In this document: piece after piece, positions 43,125 through 64,000 of the stretch | How the letters are laid out: the number at the start of each line of letters is the position of its first letter | Position numbering within the stretch: the stretch's first letter is position 1 | Source of the DNA: Tetradesmus obliquus | Lineage: Eukaryota > Chlorophyta > Chlorophyceae > Sphaeropleales > Scenedesmaceae | Assembly (NCBI GenBank): GCA_030272155.1 | Contig: CP126196.1 | Location: 1,488,001 to 1,552,000, forward strand | Direction: 5' to 3' | DNA length: 64,000 nt | The notes under the pieces: model-generated | Told to the model about the DNA's origin: nothing | What the model saw: the letters and a program-made list of their open reading frames with translations, nothing else | Databases searched by the model: none | Made by a program: the position numbers and the translations under genes

Positions 43125-45832
43125 TCACAGCGCCAGGCTCTTGTTGATGTCGATGACAAACCTGAACTTCACATCACCCTCCTTCATGCGCTCCATAGCC
43201 GTGTTCACGTACTCCATGTCGATCACCTGAGGCAGCAGCAGCAGCAGCAGCGTAACACTAAGTCGCTGTTGCAGATCGACGTACAATAAGCACGCATTTG
43301 CAGCTGCATGACAGTGAACGGCGCAACAGGTGCTTGCCAGGCTCAGCTGTGCTGTCCACAAGCAATCACACAGCCTACCCACCTCCACATCTGCTGTGAT
43401 GCCCTTCTCCCCGCAGAAGTCCAGCATCTGCTGTGTGGTGTGCAGGTTGCCGATGCTGGAGCCGCTGTACACCAAATTCCTCTGCACCACCGCAAAGTGG
43501 TTGATGGTGGGCATGTCGGGAGGCAGTCCAACAACCACCATGTGCCCCCGGGGAGCAAGCAGGGCCAGCAGTGCGTTCACATCGTGCTTGGCTGACACAG
43601 TGTCGATGATGCCGTTGAGGGTGCCTGCGCAGCAAAGTGTTAACAAACGTAGCGGCATATGTTGTGACAGGTGGTGGGGGGCAAAGCTGGCGGCGTTGGT
43701 GGTGGTGCAATCGAGGCAGCCTACGGCAGCCAAGAGTGTGTGTGTTCAGGTTACGCAATCACTTGTGGCAATTCGCATCATTTGCTGTGTGCTGCTTGCC
43801 CAGCACCACAGCAGCAGTGACTGCTGCTGCTGTTGCTGCTGTTGCTGCTGGAACAGCTCTCTCAGCGCAAGGCCTAAAGTCCACGTCCTTGCACCCCCCT
43901 GGCACCCCGCCCACCTGCCGCCTCCTTCATGGCTGCCTCGTCCCCTGAAGGGATGATGGCCTTGGCGCCCATGGCCTTGGCCTCAGCCTCCTTGGCCTTG
44001 CTCCTGCGGTTTGAAACAAAACAGCATAGTTTGAAGATGGTTTGAATTGCATGCACGTTGTTGATGACAAGCGCGGTACACATGGCCTTGGCCTCAGCCT
44101 CCTTGGCCCTGCTCCTGCAGTTTGAAACAAAGGAGGACAGTTGGCTTTGCTCCTGCAACAGCAAGACATGATGAAATTGTTTTCACTGCATGCTGTGATG
44201 TGGGAGACGCTTAACCAGCAGGGCATTGATGGCCTCAGCCTTGACTTGGCTGTTGCGGTGCAGGCAAGTCACAAGTTGCAGCAGTGCAGCGTGCTGGCAT
44301 GCGCTTCGTACGCATTGCATCACGCCGCACCTGCTGATGACGTACACCTCGCAGCCAAAGGCCACGCCAAACTTGACAGCCATGTGCCCCAGCCCACCCA
44401 GGCCCACCTGGCAGCAGCAGCAGCGGCAGCAGCGGCAGAGATAGCAGGCAGAGAGAGCCAGTGTCAGTACATCACAACCACAAGCAGTGCGCGCCACCTG
44501 CAAATGTTGTAGTGTTGTAACTGCGTACTTGGCATGCATGATGCGCAACGTGCAGTTTGAGCCGCCTTCTCCAAGCCGTTGTCCTGTCATGATGGCACTA
44601 ATAATTAATCCACCACCCTGGTTGCCAGTAAATCACCGAGTTATGAGTGTGGAACCAGCAAAGACTCACCACGCCAATCTTGAGCCCCGCCTTGTCCAGG
44701 CCGTGGTCCTTGTAAGGTGAGAAGGTGGTGATGCCTGCACACAGCAGCGGCGCCACACCCGCTAGGTCCAGGTTGGTGGGGATGGTGAAGGAGTGGCTGC
44801 GAATGCAAAAAGACAACAACAGAGAGGCAAGGCAGGTGTTAGATAACCATCAGAAAGGTATCAGCAACGGCTCCACACCCGTCAACACAGCGGACACACA
44901 AGCATTTAAATCACTGACGGGGAGCTGGAATGCATAGTAGTAACCAACTGCATGGAACCCATTGCCGTCCTGAAGTGTTTTGTCTGGCCAGCCGTTTGCC
45001 CCCTGCCCCAGTGCCGCTCACGTCTCATCCACCACCATGTGCGTAGAGTAGCCGCCCTGCCAGCGCCCACCATACATTACGTGCATATGGTACGCCCGGC
45101 TACATTGACCGCCGGCTACATCGACCGGGCCGGCAAGACCTGTCCAGCAACATCTGCCCCGCCACATCCCTCCCTATCATCAGCTCCACTCACGCCTCAT
45201 CAAACACTACGTGTGTGGAGTAGCCGCCCTGTGCAGCGCACACCATACATTGAGTGATACGAGCCGGTCAGCAACCTTGCCCCCTCAAGAACTCCTTTCC
45301 CCCTCCCCACCCCCCACACACAGCAGCGCTCACGTCTCATCCACCACCACGTGTGTGGAGTAGCCGCCCTGCGCAGCGCACACCATACATGGGGTGGTTA
45401 TAAGCCGGCCAGCAACCTTGCCCCCTCGAGATCCCCTCCCCTCCTGGCACACACACTGGCAGCACTCGCATCTCATCCACCACCACGTGTGTGGAGTAGC
45501 CGCCCTGTGCAGCGCACACCATACATGGGGTGATCATGGCCTGGCCAGCAACCAGCGCCCAATCAACATCCCCACAAAGAAACAAAACTGGCAGCACTCA
45601 CGTCTCGTCCACCACCACGTGTGTGGAGTAGCCGCCCTGTGCAGGGCTGCCATCATACTGCGTGGCGTTGTAGGTGTAGACGAGCTTGGGGCAGAAGATG
45701 TCCTCGCCAGCCTTGCACATGCCACACTCGCGGCACGACTGCACAAACACGCCCACGCCCGCGCGGTCCCCAGGCTTGAACTTCTTCACGGAAGAGCCGA
45801 TGTCGGTGACGATGCCGACGATCTCGTGGCTG

Positions 45833-54837: not shown

Positions 54838-55869
54838 ATGTTGCCACGGCCAACAAGCCACTCCAAGGCCCTCGGGCCGGGCGTGGCTGGCCCAGAGCTG
54901 GCAGTTGCAACATCAGCAGTGCAGGCAGGCCCCCCTAAGGCCAGCGCGCAGCAGCCTCTCTCGGGCGCGGACTCCTTCATGGTAGACCCGCACTGCATAG
55001 CCGATCCAGCGCGTCAGCACACGCAGTACCCCTACGTGACAGGCACATCAGTGCTGGGCATCAAGTACAAGGATGGGGTGCTGGTTGCATGCGACACGCT
55101 GGGTGCATATGGCTCCACAAAACGCTACAAGAGCGTGGAGCGAATCAAAAAAGTCAACGACCACGTCATCATCGCAGCATCTGGCGAGCTGAGTGACTTC
55201 CAGCACATCATCAAGCTGCTGGATGAGCTGACCACAGATGACTTCAGGTGGGGCTGCTGCAGCAGCTGCCAGCACAACCAGTACAACTAGTATGTATATG
55301 CCGAAGAGTTGCTTCTAATTGCGCCTTTCAAGAACATATGACAGCCTGGGATTGCGTGTACTTCGCCTGGGTTTTGGCAGCTGATCCGGTGCAGGGCGCA
55401 ACCAGTTTAGAAACAGCGTTGAGCGCATGCAGACAGCACATGCGCACAACACAAGAGCATGCCGTGCATCCTGCAGCAGCTGATGTGAAGCAAAACAGGC
55501 GGCAGCTGTGCACTGGCCAGCAGCATGCAGCAGTGCCTGCAGCACGTTGCAGCAATGCAGCAGGAAAGCTGCAGTGGTGCTGCCTTGCATCAAGTGCGCA
55601 CACATCGTATCACACAATCAAGCCAGCATCTGCGCCGATGCTGCTGCGTGCGCAAAAGAACTCGCGGCAACAGCCTGGGCCTGCAGGGGGTTTATGTGCG
55701 CCTGTAGCTGCATGGCTCAAAGCGTGCAGCTGTTTCCACCTCTGCTGCTGCTGTTACGCATTCCCTTGGTGGGACATAGGGCGGATGACGGCATCAGCCT
55801 GGGCCCTCAAGAGGCGTACGCACACCTGTTGATGCATGGCTCAACGCACCCAGCTGTGTTCACCTCTGC

Positions 55870-55917
<48 letters not shown>

Positions 55918-56124
55918 GGCACAGGGCGGATGACGGCATCAGCCTGGGGCCACGGGAGGTGTACACACGCCTGTAGCTGCATGGTTCAACGCTTGCAGCT
56001 GTTTTCACCTCTGCTTCTGCTGCTGCTGCCGGGACGTAGGGCGGATGACGACATCAGCCTGGGCCCGCGGGAGGTGTACGCGCACCTGTAGCTGCATAGT
56101 ACAACGCACGCAGCTGTATTCACC

Positions 56125-56171
<47 letters not shown>

Positions 56172-56660
56172 GTACTCTTCCAGGGCGGACGATGGCATCA
56201 GCCTGGGCCCGCAGGAGGTGTATGCGTACCTGTGCCGCGTGATGTACAACCGGCGCAACAAGATGGACCCGCTGTGGAACTCCCTCATTGTGGCAGGCAT
56301 TGAGCCGCCACACGCAGGCGCATCGGCAGAGGTGAGGCGCTGCTGTTGGCGCAGTTGTCGCAGCATGGCCTGCAGGTCTTGCAGGTCTGCAACAGCATTG
56401 ATGCCTCAATGTAGCAGAAGGATGGGCACTGCGTTCTGCCTGTTGAGTCTAAGTGTTAGGCACCTGGACAGCAGCAGCAGCAGCATTGGACGACTCTTTT
56501 TGAGTTGCCTGCACTCTTCGCAAAGCAATGTGCCTCATCTTGCTGCTTCTTCTCCCGCCGCAGGACGTGTCCACCTCTGACGTGACCTTCCTGGGCATGG
56601 TGGGCATGATCGGCACACACTGCCCACCCCCTGCTGTCAGACTATATGCATATTTTCACG

Positions 56661-56727
<67 letters not shown>

Positions 56728-58193
56728 AGGACGTGTCCACTTCCGACGTGACCTTCCTGGGCATGGTGGGCATGATCGGCACGCACTACAGCGACAGCCA
56801 CGTCACCACAGGCTTTGCCAGCCACCTGGCGCGCCCGCTGTTCAGGGAGGCGCAGGCGGACGACATGAGCGAGGAGGCAGCAGTGGCGTTGATGCACGAG
56901 GCGCTGCGAGTGTGCTACTACAGGTGCGGAAAGGGCTTTAGAAGTCGATGTTGCTGTTACAGTAGTGCTGCTGCGGCCGCAATGCATACGCTGCGCGTGT
57001 GGTGTTGCAGCTGCGCTGCTGCAGTGACAGTGTGCTGCGTATGTGATGGCGTTTGAGGGTGTGTTGGCTGCTGGAGATGTGGCTGGGTGTTGCTGCTGTT
57101 GAGGGAGGCTTCAGGCAGACGACATGAGCGAGGAGGCGGCAGTGGCACTGGTGCACGAGGCGCTGCGCGTGTGCTACCACAGGTGCGGCAACTGCTATTG
57201 AAGTTGATGTTACAGTGTCACTGCTGCGGCTGCGATGCGTACGCTGCGCGTGCAAGACTGCAGCTGCGCTGCTGCAGTGACAGTGTGCTGTGTGTGTGAT
57301 GGCGTTTGAGTGTGTGTGTGTTGCTGGAGGTTTGGCTGGGTGTTGCTGTTGTTCAGGGAGGCGCGGGCTGACGACATGAGCGAGGAGGCGGCAGTGGCAC
57401 GAGGCGCTGCGTGTGTGCTACTACAGGTGCGGTGATGTCTTGTTTAAATAGATTGTATGTACAAGTTTTGTGAGTGCTGCGGTTGTGCTATGGTAGTCAA
57501 CATGCTTTGTGCTATTGTTGTTGGTAATACTGTTGTTGTGTGGCAGCAATGGCGCTGATGCACGAGGCGCTGCGCGTGTGCTACTACAGCTGCGCTGCTG
57601 CAGTGACAGTGTGCTGCGTGTGTGATGGCGTTCTAGGGTGTGTTTGCTGCTGGAGGTGTGGCTGGGTGCTGCTGTTGTCGGCGGAGGCGCAGGCTGACGA
57701 CATGAGCGAGGAGGCAGCAGTGGCGCTGATGCACGCCGCGCTGCGCGTGTGCTACCACAGGTGTGGCTTAGCAGGCTGGCCAAGCCCACACACAGGCTCT
57801 AGTCAAGGTGTACTGCAAACACCCCACTACATGTTACCATACATGCTATCAGCAAGCTTGTGTGCTGAGCGATCTGTGCCCCTCACGCTGCCACCTGCTG
57901 CCGCATCTGCTGCTCCCAGTTGTGCAGGCACCCCGCATCTGTTGACAGAGAGACTGCATTCTGCTTGTGAGCGGGGTAGCAAACTGATCAGCAACTAATG
58001 CACCTGACCATGATCAACAATGTGTATGATGCATTGCCATGCGCTGCGCAGGGACAAGCAGAGCATGAACAAGTTCCAGCTGGCCAAGGTGACCAAGGAG
58101 GGCGTGAGCATCAGCGAGCCGTACGCGCTGGACGTGCAGTGGGACTTCAAGATGTTCAGCCAGCCCACCAAGTGGGCGGTGGGCGCGTGGTGA
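54838..58193 (+). CDS. PSMB4: 20S proteasome subunit beta type-4 (PSMB4/PBG family)
   Basis: Non-catalytic beta subunit of the 20S core particle. Four exons (54838-55247, 56184-56331, 56730-56923, 58052-58193; 894 nt, 297 residues) join in phase 2, 0, 2. Exon 1 holds the long N-terminal extension of this subunit, then PYVTGTSVLGIKYKDGVLVA, DTLGAYGSTKRYKSVERIKK and VNDHVIIAASGELSDFQHI. Exon 2 gives LCRVMYNRRNKMDPLWNSLI. Exon 3 gives FLGMVGMIGTHYSDSHVTTG. Exon 4 gives SMNKFQLAKVTKEGVSISEP and ends VQWDFKMF...KWAVGAW. There is no N-terminal catalytic threonine after a cleaved propeptide, as expected for this subunit. Every intron is swollen by tandem partial copies of the neighbouring exon edges and by long CTG tracts. 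Which copy is used at the 3' edge of exon 3 is not certain. The first complete copy is chosen because it alone carries the whole exon. Confidence 0.93.
55780..56088 (+). repeat. Three tandem copies of the 5' edge of PSMB4 exon 2
   Basis: Copies start at 55780, 55925 and 56040, each after an AG, and carry about 48 nt matching the exon start (ADDGISLGP then EVY). They then diverge into GTAGCTGCATGG or GTTGATGCATGG, where the true exon continues. The unit includes the upstream CTG-rich intron end. A further fragment of the downstream part lies near 55690. Confidence 0.85.
55872..55916 (+). repeat. (CTG)15 in PSMB4 intron 1
   Basis: Pure CTG tract leading to the duplicated acceptor at 55924. A second (CTG)15 at 56126-56170 precedes the true acceptor of exon 2. 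Confidence 0.95.
56126..56170 (+). repeat. (CTG)15 before the true PSMB4 exon 2 acceptor
   Basis: The tract stands where the polypyrimidine tract should be and is followed by TGTACTCTTCCAG and exon 2 at 56184. Confidence 0.95.
56564..56622 (+). repeat. Duplicate of the 5' edge of PSMB4 exon 3
   Basis: About 59 nt with acceptor GCCGCAG, reading DVSTSDVTFLGMVGMIGTH, then breaking off. The true exon with the same start follows at 56730 after a (CTG)21 tract. Confidence 0.9.
56664..56726 (+). repeat. (CTG)21 forming the PSMB4 exon 3 acceptor
   Basis: CTG units run without interruption into CAG and exon 3 at 56730. Confidence 0.95.
57105..57760 (+). repeat. Tandem copies of the 3' edge of PSMB4 exon 3
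   Basis: Copies ending at 57182, 57426, about 57590 and 57760 repeat DDMSEEAAVALMHEALRVCY or parts of it. Three are followed by GTGCGG or GTGTGG donors; the one near 57590 has lost its donor (CTGCGC). Spacing is irregular because of internal deletions. All lie in intron 3. Confidence 0.88.
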
Positions 58194-58510
58194 TGCGTGA
58201 TTTATGGGGCAGCAGCGGCAGCAGCAGACACCAGCAGAGGCAGCGGAGGCAGCCCAACCAGTGGGCGGTGGGCCCTTGGTGATCGGCTAGGCAGCAGCAG
58301 ATGGCAGCAGAGGCAGCAGCGCAGCAGAACAGCCCACCAAGTGGGCGGTGGGCGCGTGGTGATGCGTGATGGGCAGCAGGGGCAGCAACAAAGGCAGCAG
58401 CGCAGCCCACCAAGTGGGCGGTGGGCGCGTGGTGATCAGCATGCAGCAGCAGGCAGCAGCAGAAGCAGCACATCTGAAGCAGTGGGCGGTGGGCGCGTGG
58501 CGGGGCAGCA
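58160..58510 (+). repeat. Five tandem copies of the end of the PSMB4 coding sequence
   Basis: The segment encoding KWAVGAW plus stop recurs near 58250, 58330, 58405 and 58480 after the true stop, separated by CAG-rich spacers. It lies in the 3' UTR, so it does not alter the protein. Confidence 0.88.
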
Positions 58511-60076: not shown

Positions 60077-63000
60077 ATGGCACTCGCACAGCAGTCCGGC
60101 ATCGCTGCCCCATGCAGAAGCAGAAATGCAGCTTTTAGATACTGTTCAGTGCATCGCGCTGCGCCTTTGGTCAACAGGAGTCAGCTAACATGCCAGGCTC
60201 AGGCTCAGGGCAGTGTGCTTGCCTCAGAGGCTTTCGCTCCGCTGCTGTCGCTTGACGGTACGCTGCCGCCTACATTGGCGCTTTAGAACGACTCAGTATA
60301 GCATTAGACATCATGCGCGCCCTCTGGACAGCTGCTGCACGATCTAGTGGTGTGCCTGCAGCAGCTCTGGTGCTGCTGTTCCTCTTCAATCATCCTGCCG
60401 CCCACCGTCACACCTCACCCCACCCAGCCTCACTGAAACTGTCACTTTGACTCGGTCAAACCATTCAAACCCTGCAGACAGCTACGAGTCGGCGCACTCC
60501 TTCTCCGACTTTGCCAACTGGCTGGTGCCTGGCAGCCTGCTGGTGGGGCGCTACCCGTATGTGGAGCCCAGCAGGTGCAAGAGCTACCAGGAGGGGGAGG
60601 CCAAGCTTGAGCAGATCCTCAAGGCAGGCATCACCACCTTCATGTCGCTGCAGGTGACAAAGAGAGAGTATTTAGGGGGCGTGCCAGCTGGCAAAACATT
60701 GCGTACAACTGGGGTGGGTGGTGTGGTGCAGATGCAGGCAGCACTAGTTGCATGCCGCTGCACAGGTGAGTGCGAAAGAGGTTGGAAAAAAAGGGGCATT
60801 GCCAGCTGGCCACATCTAGCGCGCAGCTTGTGTGCGGTGAGCTACCAGGAGGGGGGGGGGGGCAAGCTGGAGCAGATCCTCAAGGCGGGCATCACCGCCT
60901 TCATGTCGCTGCAGGTGAGGCAACGGGTCGTCATTTGTATCATGCCGCAATTTCGGCAGCAGCAGCAGCAGCATCGCCTCCATGCGCTGCGTGGGCTGGT
61001 GTGGAGTTGGTGCTGAATTGGCCACCTACTGGCCACATGCACGGTTGCTGTGGTTGGCCTGCGCAGCCTGCTGTCTAATGCAATCTGTCTGCCAACAAGT
61101 GCTGCTGCGTCACTTGTTTCCCCTGCAGGCGGAGGTGCCTGCGCAGGCTGAGCTGGCGCTGCGTGGCGTGAACGGCTTCATGCCCTACAAGTCAGCAGCA
61201 GAGCTCATCAAGCACTCCATGGCAGGGTGAGCGGAGTTGACACGCCATTTAATGTTACATTGTGACTGTTATGTGACGATATGAGGTGCCCGGCACCAAG
61301 CGGCAGGTTTGCTTGCTGCTGAAAGGCGCTGCCGCATGGTTGATTGAGCAGCTGCACACCGCAACAGATGCAGCATGACCAGGCCTCCTACACAACATTC
61401 ACCAGGGCGCATGTAAGAGAGGCGGTGCGGTGTGTGTTGTAGTTTAAGTGTGTAGTACTGCTGCTGCTGCTGCCGTGTCCGCAGGCCCCCTCCCTCTGAC
61501 ATCATGAATGGGCTGCGCACACCAGAGCTGGACCGCTACCTGCCGCCTAGGGTGAGAGCATTGATCTGCATATGTTGACCTCAATAACAATCACACTGAC
61601 AGCGATCACAGTAGAATGCATAGCAGTTCAGAGCTGGATAGGTGCCTGCTGCCAGGGGTGGGCTGCTTTGATGCAGGCAACACTCTGGGGAAGCAACATC
61701 TGCGTGATATTTTTGTCCAAACATCAAGACAACGTGTTTCCTGTTTCCATATAAGATTTCATTTATATGGTTAGTCGTACTGTACATGTTGTGGCCTGGA
61801 GAATTCTGCTGCTGCTTGTGGGGTACATATTCCACGGGCTTGCACGGCTAGCCTGCCACCAACATGCACGGCTAGCCTGCCACCAACATGCAACAGCAAG
61901 ACAAGCGCCCCCCTAACTGGCATCAGCGCCATGCCTGCTGCCGTCCCTCTGTGCACCTTCCCTCTGCTGCCACGCATCCGCAGCACAAGCCTGCCAACGA
62001 GGCGTACATTGCGTATGCTGCGCGCGAGACGCTGGAGTTTGCGCACAGCCCGATTGAAGACCTCAGCGTGCCACGGGAGCGCCAGTGAGTGCTTATTACG
62101 CTTTAAGATTGGCGCTGTGTGCCTGTCATGCTTGTCATCTCCTTGAAGTTTTGAAGTTTGTGCACAGCCCGATTGAAGACCTCAGCGTGCCACGGGAGCG
62201 CCAGTGAGTGCTTATTACGCTTTAAGATTGGCGCTGTGTGCCTGTCATGCTTGTCATCTCCTTGAAGTTTTGAAGTTTGTGCACAGCCCGATTGAAGACC
62301 TCAGCGTGCCAGGGGAGCACCAGTGAGTGCAGATTTCGGGTTGTTGGTTGCATTGTATGCCTGCCATGCTTCTCATCGCCTTTATATCTATAGATGCGCA
62401 CAGCCCCATCGAAGACCTCAGCGTGCCAGGAGAGCGCCAGTGAGTGCATATTACGCATTGATACTGGCATTGTGTGCCTGTCATGCTTGCCATCGCCTTG
62501 ATGTTTTAAAGTTGTCGCACAGCCCAATTGAAGACCTCAGCGTGTCAGGGGAGCGCCAGTGAGTGCAGATTACGCTTTAGTATTGGCAGTGTGTGCCTGT
62601 CATGCTTGTCATCGCCTTGATGTTCAAGGTTTGTGCACAGCCCCATTGAGGACCTCAGCGTGCCAGGGGAGCGCCAGTGAGTGCAGATTTCGTAGTGGTG
62701 TTGGTGTTGTGCGCCTGCCATGCTTGCAATTGCCTTGGTATTTCAAGTTTGCACACAGCCCCATTGTGGACCTCAGCGTGCCAGGGGAGCGCCAGTGAGT
62801 GCAGATTTCGGGGTTGTTGGTTGCATTGTGTGCCTGCCATGCTTGTGAATGCCTTTATGATTCATATCTGCGCACAGCCCCATTGAAGACCTCAGCATGC
62901 CAGGGGAGCGCCAGTGAGTGCAGATTTCGCACTGGTGTTGGCATTGTGTGCCTGCCATGCCTGTCATCGTTGTGATGTGTTTAAGTGTGTGCACAGCCCC

Positions 63001-63227
63001 ATTGAGGAGCTCAGCGTGCCGCGCGAGCGCCAGTGAGCCACACTTGTCTCGTGTGCCTGTCGTGCTTGATATTGACTTGTAATTTGTGTTCATAGTTGCT
63101 CAGCCCCCTGGAGCCCTCAGCGTGCCAGCGGAGCGCTAGTCAGTGCATCCAAAGCACTGCAGCAGATTGCTCACCCATCATGCGTGTCGTGCTTGTCATC
63201 ACCAATACATATCAGCGTGTTGACCAT

Positions 63228-63259
<32 letters not shown>

Positions 63260-64000
63260 CTGGATGAGATCGTGGCCGACATGCAGCGCCGCATCGAGGC
63301 TGGCGAGGTGCTGTACGCGCACTGCTGGGGAGGGCGCGGCCGCGTGGGGCTGGTGGGGGCCTGCTTCCTGGCAGCAACATACGGGTGAGTGGGTGCTGCA
63401 ATCTGCTGTTGCTGCTGCTGCTGCTTCTAGCTTGCTGTTGTCGTGTTGTGCGGCTGGTGGGCGCCTGCTTCCTGGCGGCAACATACACGTGAGTGGATGG
63501 CAGCAGGCTGTGCTTTGCTGCTGCTGCTGCTGCTGCTGCTTTGCTTGCTGTGTGCTGGTGTCTAGGTGCGGGACAGGCGGGCACATTGAGCTGGTGGCCG
63601 CCTGCTTCCTGGTGACAAGATACCCAGCAGCATCATAGCTGTGCAGCATAAAGCCAATAGGGAGAAAATGCCAATTGTTGATATGCTGTGATATTGTAAC
63701 AAATGTTATGTTTCTTGCGCGCAGCGTGTCAGCTGACGAGGCGCTGGAGCGCGTGCAGCGTGCCTTTGACACGCGCAAGGACAACGAGCGCCGCAGCCAT
63801 CACTTAAGCTGTTATTTGTTATGTTATTTCTGTCCTGTAGTGTGTCAGCTGACCAGGCGTTGGAGCGCGTGCAGCGTGCCTTTGACATACGCAAGGACAA
63901 CGAGCGCCGCAGCCATCACTTAAGCTGTTATTTGTTATGTTGTTTCTGTCCTGCAGTGTGTCAGCTGACCAGGCGTTGGAGCGCGTGCAGCGTGCCTTTG
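60077..64000 (+). CDS. Protein-tyrosine/dual-specificity phosphatase-like protein (partial, runs off the right edge)
   Basis: Exons: 60077-60257, 60478-60653, 61129-61226, 61485-61551, 61984-62084, 63259-63384 and a further exon from 63725 (tandemly repeated, continuing past the window). Exon 1 gives an Ala/Arg/Ser-rich start (MALAQQSGIAAPCRSRNAAF) that may be an organelle-targeting peptide. Exon 2 holds FANWLVPGSLLVGRYPYVEP and LEQILKAGITTFMSLQ, the N-terminal part of cysteine-phosphatase folds where a GITTVIxLQ strand is usual. Exon 6 has the active-site loop HCWGGRGRVG (HCx5R-type, Cys nucleophile and Arg), followed by LVGACFLAATYG and, next exon, SADEALERVQRAFDTRKDNE. Substrate unknown. 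Exon 5 ends PIEDLSVPRER and is followed in the intron by eight complete copies of its last 36 nt with splice sites. The edges of exons 2, 6 and 7 are also duplicated. Confidence 0.82.
60838..60915 (+). repeat. Duplicate of the 3' end of phosphatase exon 2
   Basis: Repeats the last ~78 nt of exon 2 (SYQEG, then LEQILKAGITAFMSLQ) with its donor GTGAGG, about 260 bp downstream. A run of ten or more G replaces the GGGGGAGGCC of the true exon. Confidence 0.88.
62168..63032 (+). repeat. Array of eight in-frame 36-nt mini-exon-like blocks in phosphatase intron 5
   Basis: Blocks at 62168-62203, 62287-62322, 62404-62439, 62523-62558, 62641-62676, 62759-62794, 62878-62913 and 62997-63032 copy the last 36 nt of exon 5. 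Each is preceded by CACAG and followed by GTGAGT (GTGAGC in the last). Donor-to-donor distances, counting the true exon, are 119, 119, 117, 119, 118, 118, 119 and 119 bp. Each begins and ends in phase 2 and reads PIEDLSVPxER, so inclusion adds 12 residues without a stop. A decayed ninth copy lies near 63101-63138 with a lost donor. Confidence 0.93.
63448..63610 (+). repeat. Two copies of the 3' end of the phosphatase active-site exon
   Basis: The segment reading RLVGACFLAATY recurs near 63450-63489, with a GTGAGT donor, and in a more diverged form near 63570-63610 (ELVAACFLVTRYP), without one. Both lie in intron 6 and neither includes the HC motif. Confidence 0.82.
63722..64000 (+). repeat. 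Tandem 116-117 bp copies of the 5' edge of phosphatase exon 7
   Basis: Three copies begin near 63725, 63841 and 63958, the last cut by the window. Each has its own acceptor (GCGCAG, CTGTAG, CTGCAG) and reads VSADEALERVQRAFDTRKDN or a close variant, followed by the same intron-like spacer ending TTTCTGTCCTGYAG. Which copy continues into the rest of the exon cannot be seen. Confidence 0.88.

Follow-up and report, generated by a model that had tools for sequence, protein, structure and literature searches.

The stretch of DNA analysed here, termed the window, comprises 64,000 nucleotides of Tetradesmus obliquus (C6:1488001-1552000) from an assembly of 104.66 Mb in 17 contigs. The forward strand at its right end carries a gene of seven exons with GT-AG borders. 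Exon 1 (60077..60257, start codon at 60077) is followed by exon 2 (60478..60653), exon 3 (61129..61226), exon 4 (61485..61551) and exon 5 (61984..62084). Intron 5 (62085..63258) is 1,174 nt long and contains an entire tandem array derived from the end of exon 5. Exon 6 (63259..63384) encodes the post-loop helix and the catalytic P-loop, HCWGGRGRVG, and exon 7 (64189-64355) lies past the window edge. When all array copies are skipped, the gene model translates to 304 amino acids that are 99% identical, with four residue differences, to the T. obliquus protein P0001, which comes from another strain or a relative. P0001 is also 304 amino acids long, the length of the form with every array copy skipped.

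Other exon edges of this gene are repeated on the same strand. Intron 2 holds one repeat of the 3' end of exon 2 together with its donor (60839..60914), and intron 6 holds two degraded repeats of the 3' end of exon 6 (63448..63624, starting at 63448 and 63585). Upstream of the real exon 7, its 5' end, acceptor included, is copied four times; the part of this array within the window occupies 63725..64000. In this array, GTGTCAGCTGAC is found at 63726, 63842 and 63958 in the window, and beyond its edge at 64074 and, for the real exon, at 64190. The transcript-derived relatives P0003 and P0009 both end right after the exon-6 sequence, at 258 amino acids. Such endings would fit retention of the intron that precedes exon 7; in the genome of the window, that intron holds the four exon-7 start copies.

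The gene product is, by its sequence, a PTP/DSP-fold phosphatase. The PTP-SAK family (PF22784) is matched with 52.5 bits by P0001 (cut-off 27) and with 56.2 bits by the translation of the window itself. The nearest folds of the P0001 model are DUSP23 (2img) and Tk-PTP (5z59), and the protein shares with these phosphatases the C-x5-R P-loop and the PIxD loop at conserved spacing. Among 84 aligned sequences, H229, C230, G233 and G235 of the P-loop are invariant and R236 is nearly so.

The array in intron 5

The last 36 nt of exon 5 (62049-62084, copy 1) encode residues 197-208 of P0001 and recur eight times in intron 5 with a period of approximately 119 bp. The initial annotation had described these eight copies, and both a pattern search and TRF recovered them, with TRF scores for the array of 1135-1417, far above chance. 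The intronic copies encode PIEDLSVPRER (copy 2, 62168..62203), PIEDLSVPGEH (copy 3, 62287..62322), PIEDLSVPGER (copy 4, 62404..62439), PIEDLSVSGER (copy 5, 62523..62558), PIEDLSVPGER (copy 6, 62641..62676), PIVDLSVPGER (copy 7, 62759..62794), PIEDLSMPGER (copy 8, 62878..62913) and PIEELSVPRER (copy 9, 62997..63032), in the last of which Glu replaces the Asp. An additional, decayed copy had also been noted; it is present at 63104..63138, spans 35 nt and has CTCAG before it and GTCAGT after it. The exon-5 end and the eight intronic copies all fit the pattern CACAG-[36]-GTGAG, and all nine blocks are symmetric (phase 2 to phase 2) and free of in-frame stops, in agreement with the frame preservation described for the eight copies. 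The nine blocks contain no indels, and spacer lengths range from 81 to 83 nt. A 21-nt block pattern was matched only within this array in the whole 104.66-Mb genome. At the protein level, 12 of 13 genomic matches to the block fall in the phosphatase gene and the remaining one is a weak match on C7. The block was absent from viral and prokaryotic contigs in a search with a single 27-nt pattern.

The borders of the repeat unit bear on how the copies acquired their flanking motifs. CACAG also occurs within exon 5 directly before the block, in the codons GCG CAC AGC (Ala-His-Ser), and the repeat homology begins about 13 nt ahead of the block, in exon-5 coding sequence. The unit therefore runs from the exon end across the donor into the start of the intron, and the CACAG before each copy is inherited. 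Thus the claim that CACAG and GTGAG surround every copy holds for all eight, but CACAG is exon-5 coding sequence carried along and not an independently placed acceptor. The putative acceptors of copies 2-9 are also pyrimidine-poor, with a mean fraction of about 0.55 versus about 0.69 in six real acceptors, three of which had their borders placed off by one in this comparison.

Copies 1 and 2 are identical in block (36/36) and spacer (83/83). Both have an Arg codon at a position occupied by Gly in P0001, P0002, P0003 and copies 3-8, and this combination indicates that the last duplication was recent. Copy 3 has a block resembling those of copies 1-2 and a spacer nearest to that of copy 7 (70/80 identical); this chimera appears to be a sign of exchange within the array. 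A stretch of about 19 nt in the spacer (TGTGTGCCTGYCATGCTTG, for example at window position 62116-62134) is conserved about as well as the blocks.

The block had been taken for a variable-length spacer, but it presumably corresponds to a functional part of the enzyme. In an AlphaFold2 model of P0001 (mean pLDDT 87, with low confidence over the N-terminal ~45 residues), the block peptide PIEDLSVPxER forms the end of a strand, a loop and the opening turn of the helix running towards the P-loop. P197, I198, D200, L201 and P204 are conserved in at least 90% of the 84 aligned sequences, out of 111 homologues, and the stretch aligns with PIPD of Tk-PTP. The Asp in the PIxDLSVP loop is presumably the general acid of the phosphatase. 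Given the conservation, the PIPD alignment and the fold match to DUSP23 and Tk-PTP, the repeated unit is presumed to be a general-acid loop rather than a neutral spacer. By a score threshold of our own, exactly one loop unit was detected in 98 of 113 homologues, none in 15, and more than one in no protein. A search with the eight-copy isoform as the query, scoring the 8,000 candidates with most words in common, also found no repeat-bearing protein; because the protein set was clustered at 90%, a minor isoform may be concealed among the 15 members that P0001 represents.

Constraint on the blocks and on other exon-edge arrays

The exon-derived part of the array varies less than the remainder. 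Across copies 1-8, 9 of 49 columns are variable in the segment formed by CACAG, the block and GTGAGTGC, compared to 42 of 68 outside it (Fisher P = 4e-6), and none of the 13 splice-motif columns varies. The blocks of copies 1-9 contain 6 nonsynonymous (N) and 7 synonymous (S) distinct changes, whereas the spacer rate predicts 20.3 N and 7.1 S. Synonymous changes thus agree with expectation, and nonsynonymous changes reach only about 0.3 of it. The N share is below the neutral expectation of 74% (P = 0.03), consistent with the lean towards third codon positions described initially; with the decayed copy added, the count is 9 N to 7 S (P = 0.10). The best conserved segment extends from -5 to 88 (-5 to 84 for copies 2-8), with its left edge exactly on CACAG and its right edge far into the spacer. 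Arrays were also simulated with selection on copy 1 alone, in 363 runs over eight settings, with and without conversion, two of the settings yielding 3 and 2 runs. The mean ratio of N to spacer changes per setting was 0.84-1.50, a ratio of 0.30 or below was reached in 3 of 363 runs, and all motif columns remained intact in 0 of 363. Simple neutral decay therefore does not reproduce the data. Simple turnover is likewise not claimed as the cause of the constraint, given that the 363 simulated runs failed to match the data.

Tandem arrays are common in this genome. A sample of 200 kb (twenty 10-kb stretches) contains 27 arrays with a period of at least 50, equivalent to 135 per Mb and 5.8% of bases, and six of the 27 have at least 4.5 copies. 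The window contains seven arrays of period at least 50, all overlapping exon sequence by our reading and six straddling a splice edge. One involves the exon end of an ADH-like gene, three lie in a proteasome-subunit-like gene and three in the phosphatase gene. The proteasome-subunit-like gene (55640-58480) has arrays on the acceptor side, on the donor side and at the terminal exon end, including the stop. Donor-like motifs are not enriched in tandem arrays, either in the sample (10/27 versus 12.3 expected) or in the window (4/7 versus 4.8). Just past the right window edge, a PEMT-like gene (L005 8797-9111) has an exon end repeated twice; its third copy has four changes relative to the exon, all synonymous.

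The array in the ADH-like gene (Pfam ADH_N; 45022-45644, minus strand) serves as a close control. An exon 3' end with its donor is repeated four times in the next intron in the same AG-block-donor layout, with a block of 35 nt following CACAG, CGCAG or GGCAG and with GC instead of GT in one copy. A block of 35 nt would shift the reading frame if spliced in. Identity is higher in the intronic blocks of this array (0.886) than in its spacers (0.670), as in the phosphatase array with the decayed copy included (0.863 versus 0.738) and in the cores of two acceptor-side arrays, L035 (0.773 versus 0.618) and L031 (0.910 versus 0.794). No core excess was observed in the proteasome-subunit donor array (array C; 0.783 versus 0.837, with 2 of 4 spacers used) or in the acceptor array of the same gene (array D; 0.753 versus 0.739, with 3 of 4 used), spacers of unusual length having been dropped from both, or in the young exon-7 array (0.941 versus 0.952). 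In the segment scan, for which one copy start of array E was placed by hand, the left edge of conservation lies at -11 in the ADH-like array, -14 in L035 and -7 in L031. A conserved edge beside the acceptor is therefore not unique to the phosphatase gene, although the segment coincides exactly with the acceptor motif only there among the arrays scanned.

The codon lean is shared as well. The ten arrays counted (A, the phosphatase array, and B-J) were picked visually from three sources (the window, the sequence continuing it and the 200-kb sample) and are not a random set. All located copies were counted uniformly, with inserted bases relative to the real exon dropped and deleted bases treated as missing. 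Arrays B-J together have 53 N and 59 S changes, versus 73.5% N expected (P = 4e-9), which places N/S at 0.32 of neutral, and the phosphatase array does not differ from these nine (Fisher P = 0.60). Two small arrays are opposite or flat, at exon 6 (5 N to 2 S) and exon 2 (3 N to 2 S). Three arrays are clearly unable to be in-frame cassettes, the ADH-like array because of its 35-nt block and the L031 and exon-7 arrays because they lack a consensus donor. These three have 10 N and 16 S changes (P = 2e-4), and the phosphatase array is indistinguishable from them without (P = 0.74) or with (P = 0.34) its decayed copy. In acceptor arrays D and E, the core end lacks a donor, with donor-like motifs scattered inside some copies, and array E has two stop changes. 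Intact splice motifs are a clear advantage of the phosphatase array over the controls: 0 of 13 motif columns vary, compared to 5 of 13 in the ADH-like array (Fisher P = 0.04). That comparison used four of the five F copies and array A minus its decayed copy, left arrays C, D, H, I and J aside, and had 9 nt masked in one copy of E.

Neutral copies compared to a constrained exon should, by our own reasoning, show an N/S of no less than about 0.55 of neutral. The controls fall below this floor, both for all nine arrays (P = 0.003) and for the three that cannot be cassettes (P = 0.02). Candidates for the cause of a ratio near 0.3 are frequent replacement of the exon edge by copies, a mutation bias by codon position, the choice of arrays and real use of the copies. 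Local repeats in general have a mismatch phase bias near expectation (0.498 versus 0.481 in 183 segments with at least six mismatches each), so repeats as such do not lean by codon, while the ten hand-picked exon-edge arrays do. The codon-phased constraint in exon-edge copies is a puzzle and the more interesting lead.

Origin of the array

The array probably arose as sequence spanning the exon-5 donor was duplicated in tandem several times, and it is probably removed as one 1,174-nt intron. A segment of about 119 bp over the donor, formed by approximately the last 49 nt of exon 5 and the first 70 nt of intron 5, would have been duplicated in tandem again and again into intron 5. Each copy inherited the exon block, the donor and the coding CACAG that resembles an acceptor. 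That CACAG is exon-5 coding sequence carried along is what identifies the unit as a duplication across the donor. The identity of copies 1 and 2 suggests that the latest duplication took in the exon end itself. In the main mRNA, the outermost donor (62084/62085) would be joined to the acceptor before 63259. All copies would thus leave as one intron, and the protein would have one general-acid loop. Duplication would be tolerated because donor-side copies keep the original donor first and acceptor-side copies keep the original acceptor last. The phosphatase array would be one instance of a genome-wide habit. Occasional leaky inclusion of the splice-competent pseudo-exon copies is plausible.

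In an alternative that builds on a possibility raised by the initial annotation, the blocks would be true cassette mini-exons, of which 0 to 8 would be included by alternative splicing and which selection would keep in frame. Extra copies of the 12-residue general-acid loop would then be inserted between the loop strand and the pre-P-loop helix. The structure, frame and splice motifs behind that reading stand: all eight copies retain CACAG, GTGAG, the 36-nt length and the frame, the nine blocks have no indels although the spacers vary in length, and the conserved segment begins exactly on the putative acceptor. The comparisons it had called for, of synonymous with nonsynonymous change and of blocks with spacers, are also positive, in both the deficit of variable columns and the deficit of nonsynonymous changes, and the control arrays do not explain this constraint away since they share it. 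By the same token the constraint does not prove inclusion, since exon-derived cores are likewise favoured, in codon lean and in conservation, in arrays unable to be in-frame cassettes. In addition, no protein with two units was found among the 113 homologues or with the eight-copy query, the putative acceptors are poor in pyrimidines, and in the model the insertion point falls within the first turn of helix 206-221. With no homologue found to carry more than one copy and with exon-edge copies all around, a by-product of duplication is likelier than a splicing device, and cassette use is considered unlikely.

A role for untranslated copies in tuning splicing or expression, with decoy donors and pseudo-exons slowing the removal of intron 5 and the motifs kept as RNA signals, is highly improbable. 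The invariant donor and acceptor motifs would fit such a role, as would the relative conservation of the 19-nt spacer stretch and the recurrence of exon-edge arrays on donor and acceptor sides in several genes. However, the changes in the blocks track codon phase, which is unexpected for RNA signals. The strongest pairing of the spacer stretch is with exon 7, at -37.3 kcal/mol, and the lowest value among 40 shuffles, themselves scanned at half the density, was -36.2; this margin is small and the site lies in coding sequence. As a Dscam-like docking site, this best site, barely beyond the shuffles, was rejected. An assembly artefact could account for the identity of copies 1 and 2 but can hardly account for the array, whose remaining copies diverge both mutually and from exon 5, in block as well as spacer sequence; the assembly comprises 17 contigs.

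Relation to known systems and implications

Repeated duplication across a splice edge has a partial precedent. In potato RdRp, according to the accessible text of PMC4974935, one tandem duplication across the intron 1/exon 2 boundary made a new intron. As far as that text describes it, the two cases are alike in that a tandem segment over an exon-intron boundary brings ready splice signals, and in that once-coding sequence turns intronic or supplies a splice site. The phosphatase differs in having eight or nine copies, on the donor side, with a coding CACAG as the possible acceptor. The array also resembles tandem exon duplication with mutually exclusive or other alternative splicing, as outlined in the accessible part of PMC9013439, in its head-to-tail, frame-preserving copies and splice-site motifs. 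Unlike those tandem exons, the putative mini-exons of the phosphatase comprise only the 3' end of an exon. A simple exclusive choice would be impossible in the phosphatase gene, because copy 1 is itself part of exon 5. No report of such arrays stood among the matches listed in literature searches on Tetradesmus or Scenedesmus, or on partial exon duplication, exon duplication or micro-exon arrays. The accessible text of a study of S. acutus phytochelatin synthase describes intron retention and exon skipping and does not contain the words "tandem" or "repeat".

A bolder proposal is that the introns of this alga hold a large class of donor- and acceptor-side exon-edge arrays under codon-phased constraint (N/S about 0.3 of neutral), whose copies would be kept from free decay by recurrent use or re-use as exon sequence. 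Phosphatase transcripts would then carry one to nine general-acid loops, and a single gene would give rise to enzymes with a tunable number of loops. This proposal is distinctly unlikely.

Were the blocks spliced in, a single gene would produce phosphatases that differ in how many catalytic loops they carry, a very unusual situation. Otherwise, the array would represent a clear natural series in which tandem duplication over splice edges loads introns with splice-competent pseudo-exons. The abundance of tandem arrays in this genome is sufficient for statistical study, and the codon-phased constraint, in copies that would be expected to decay, poses a puzzle on the turnover or use of exon-edge copies.
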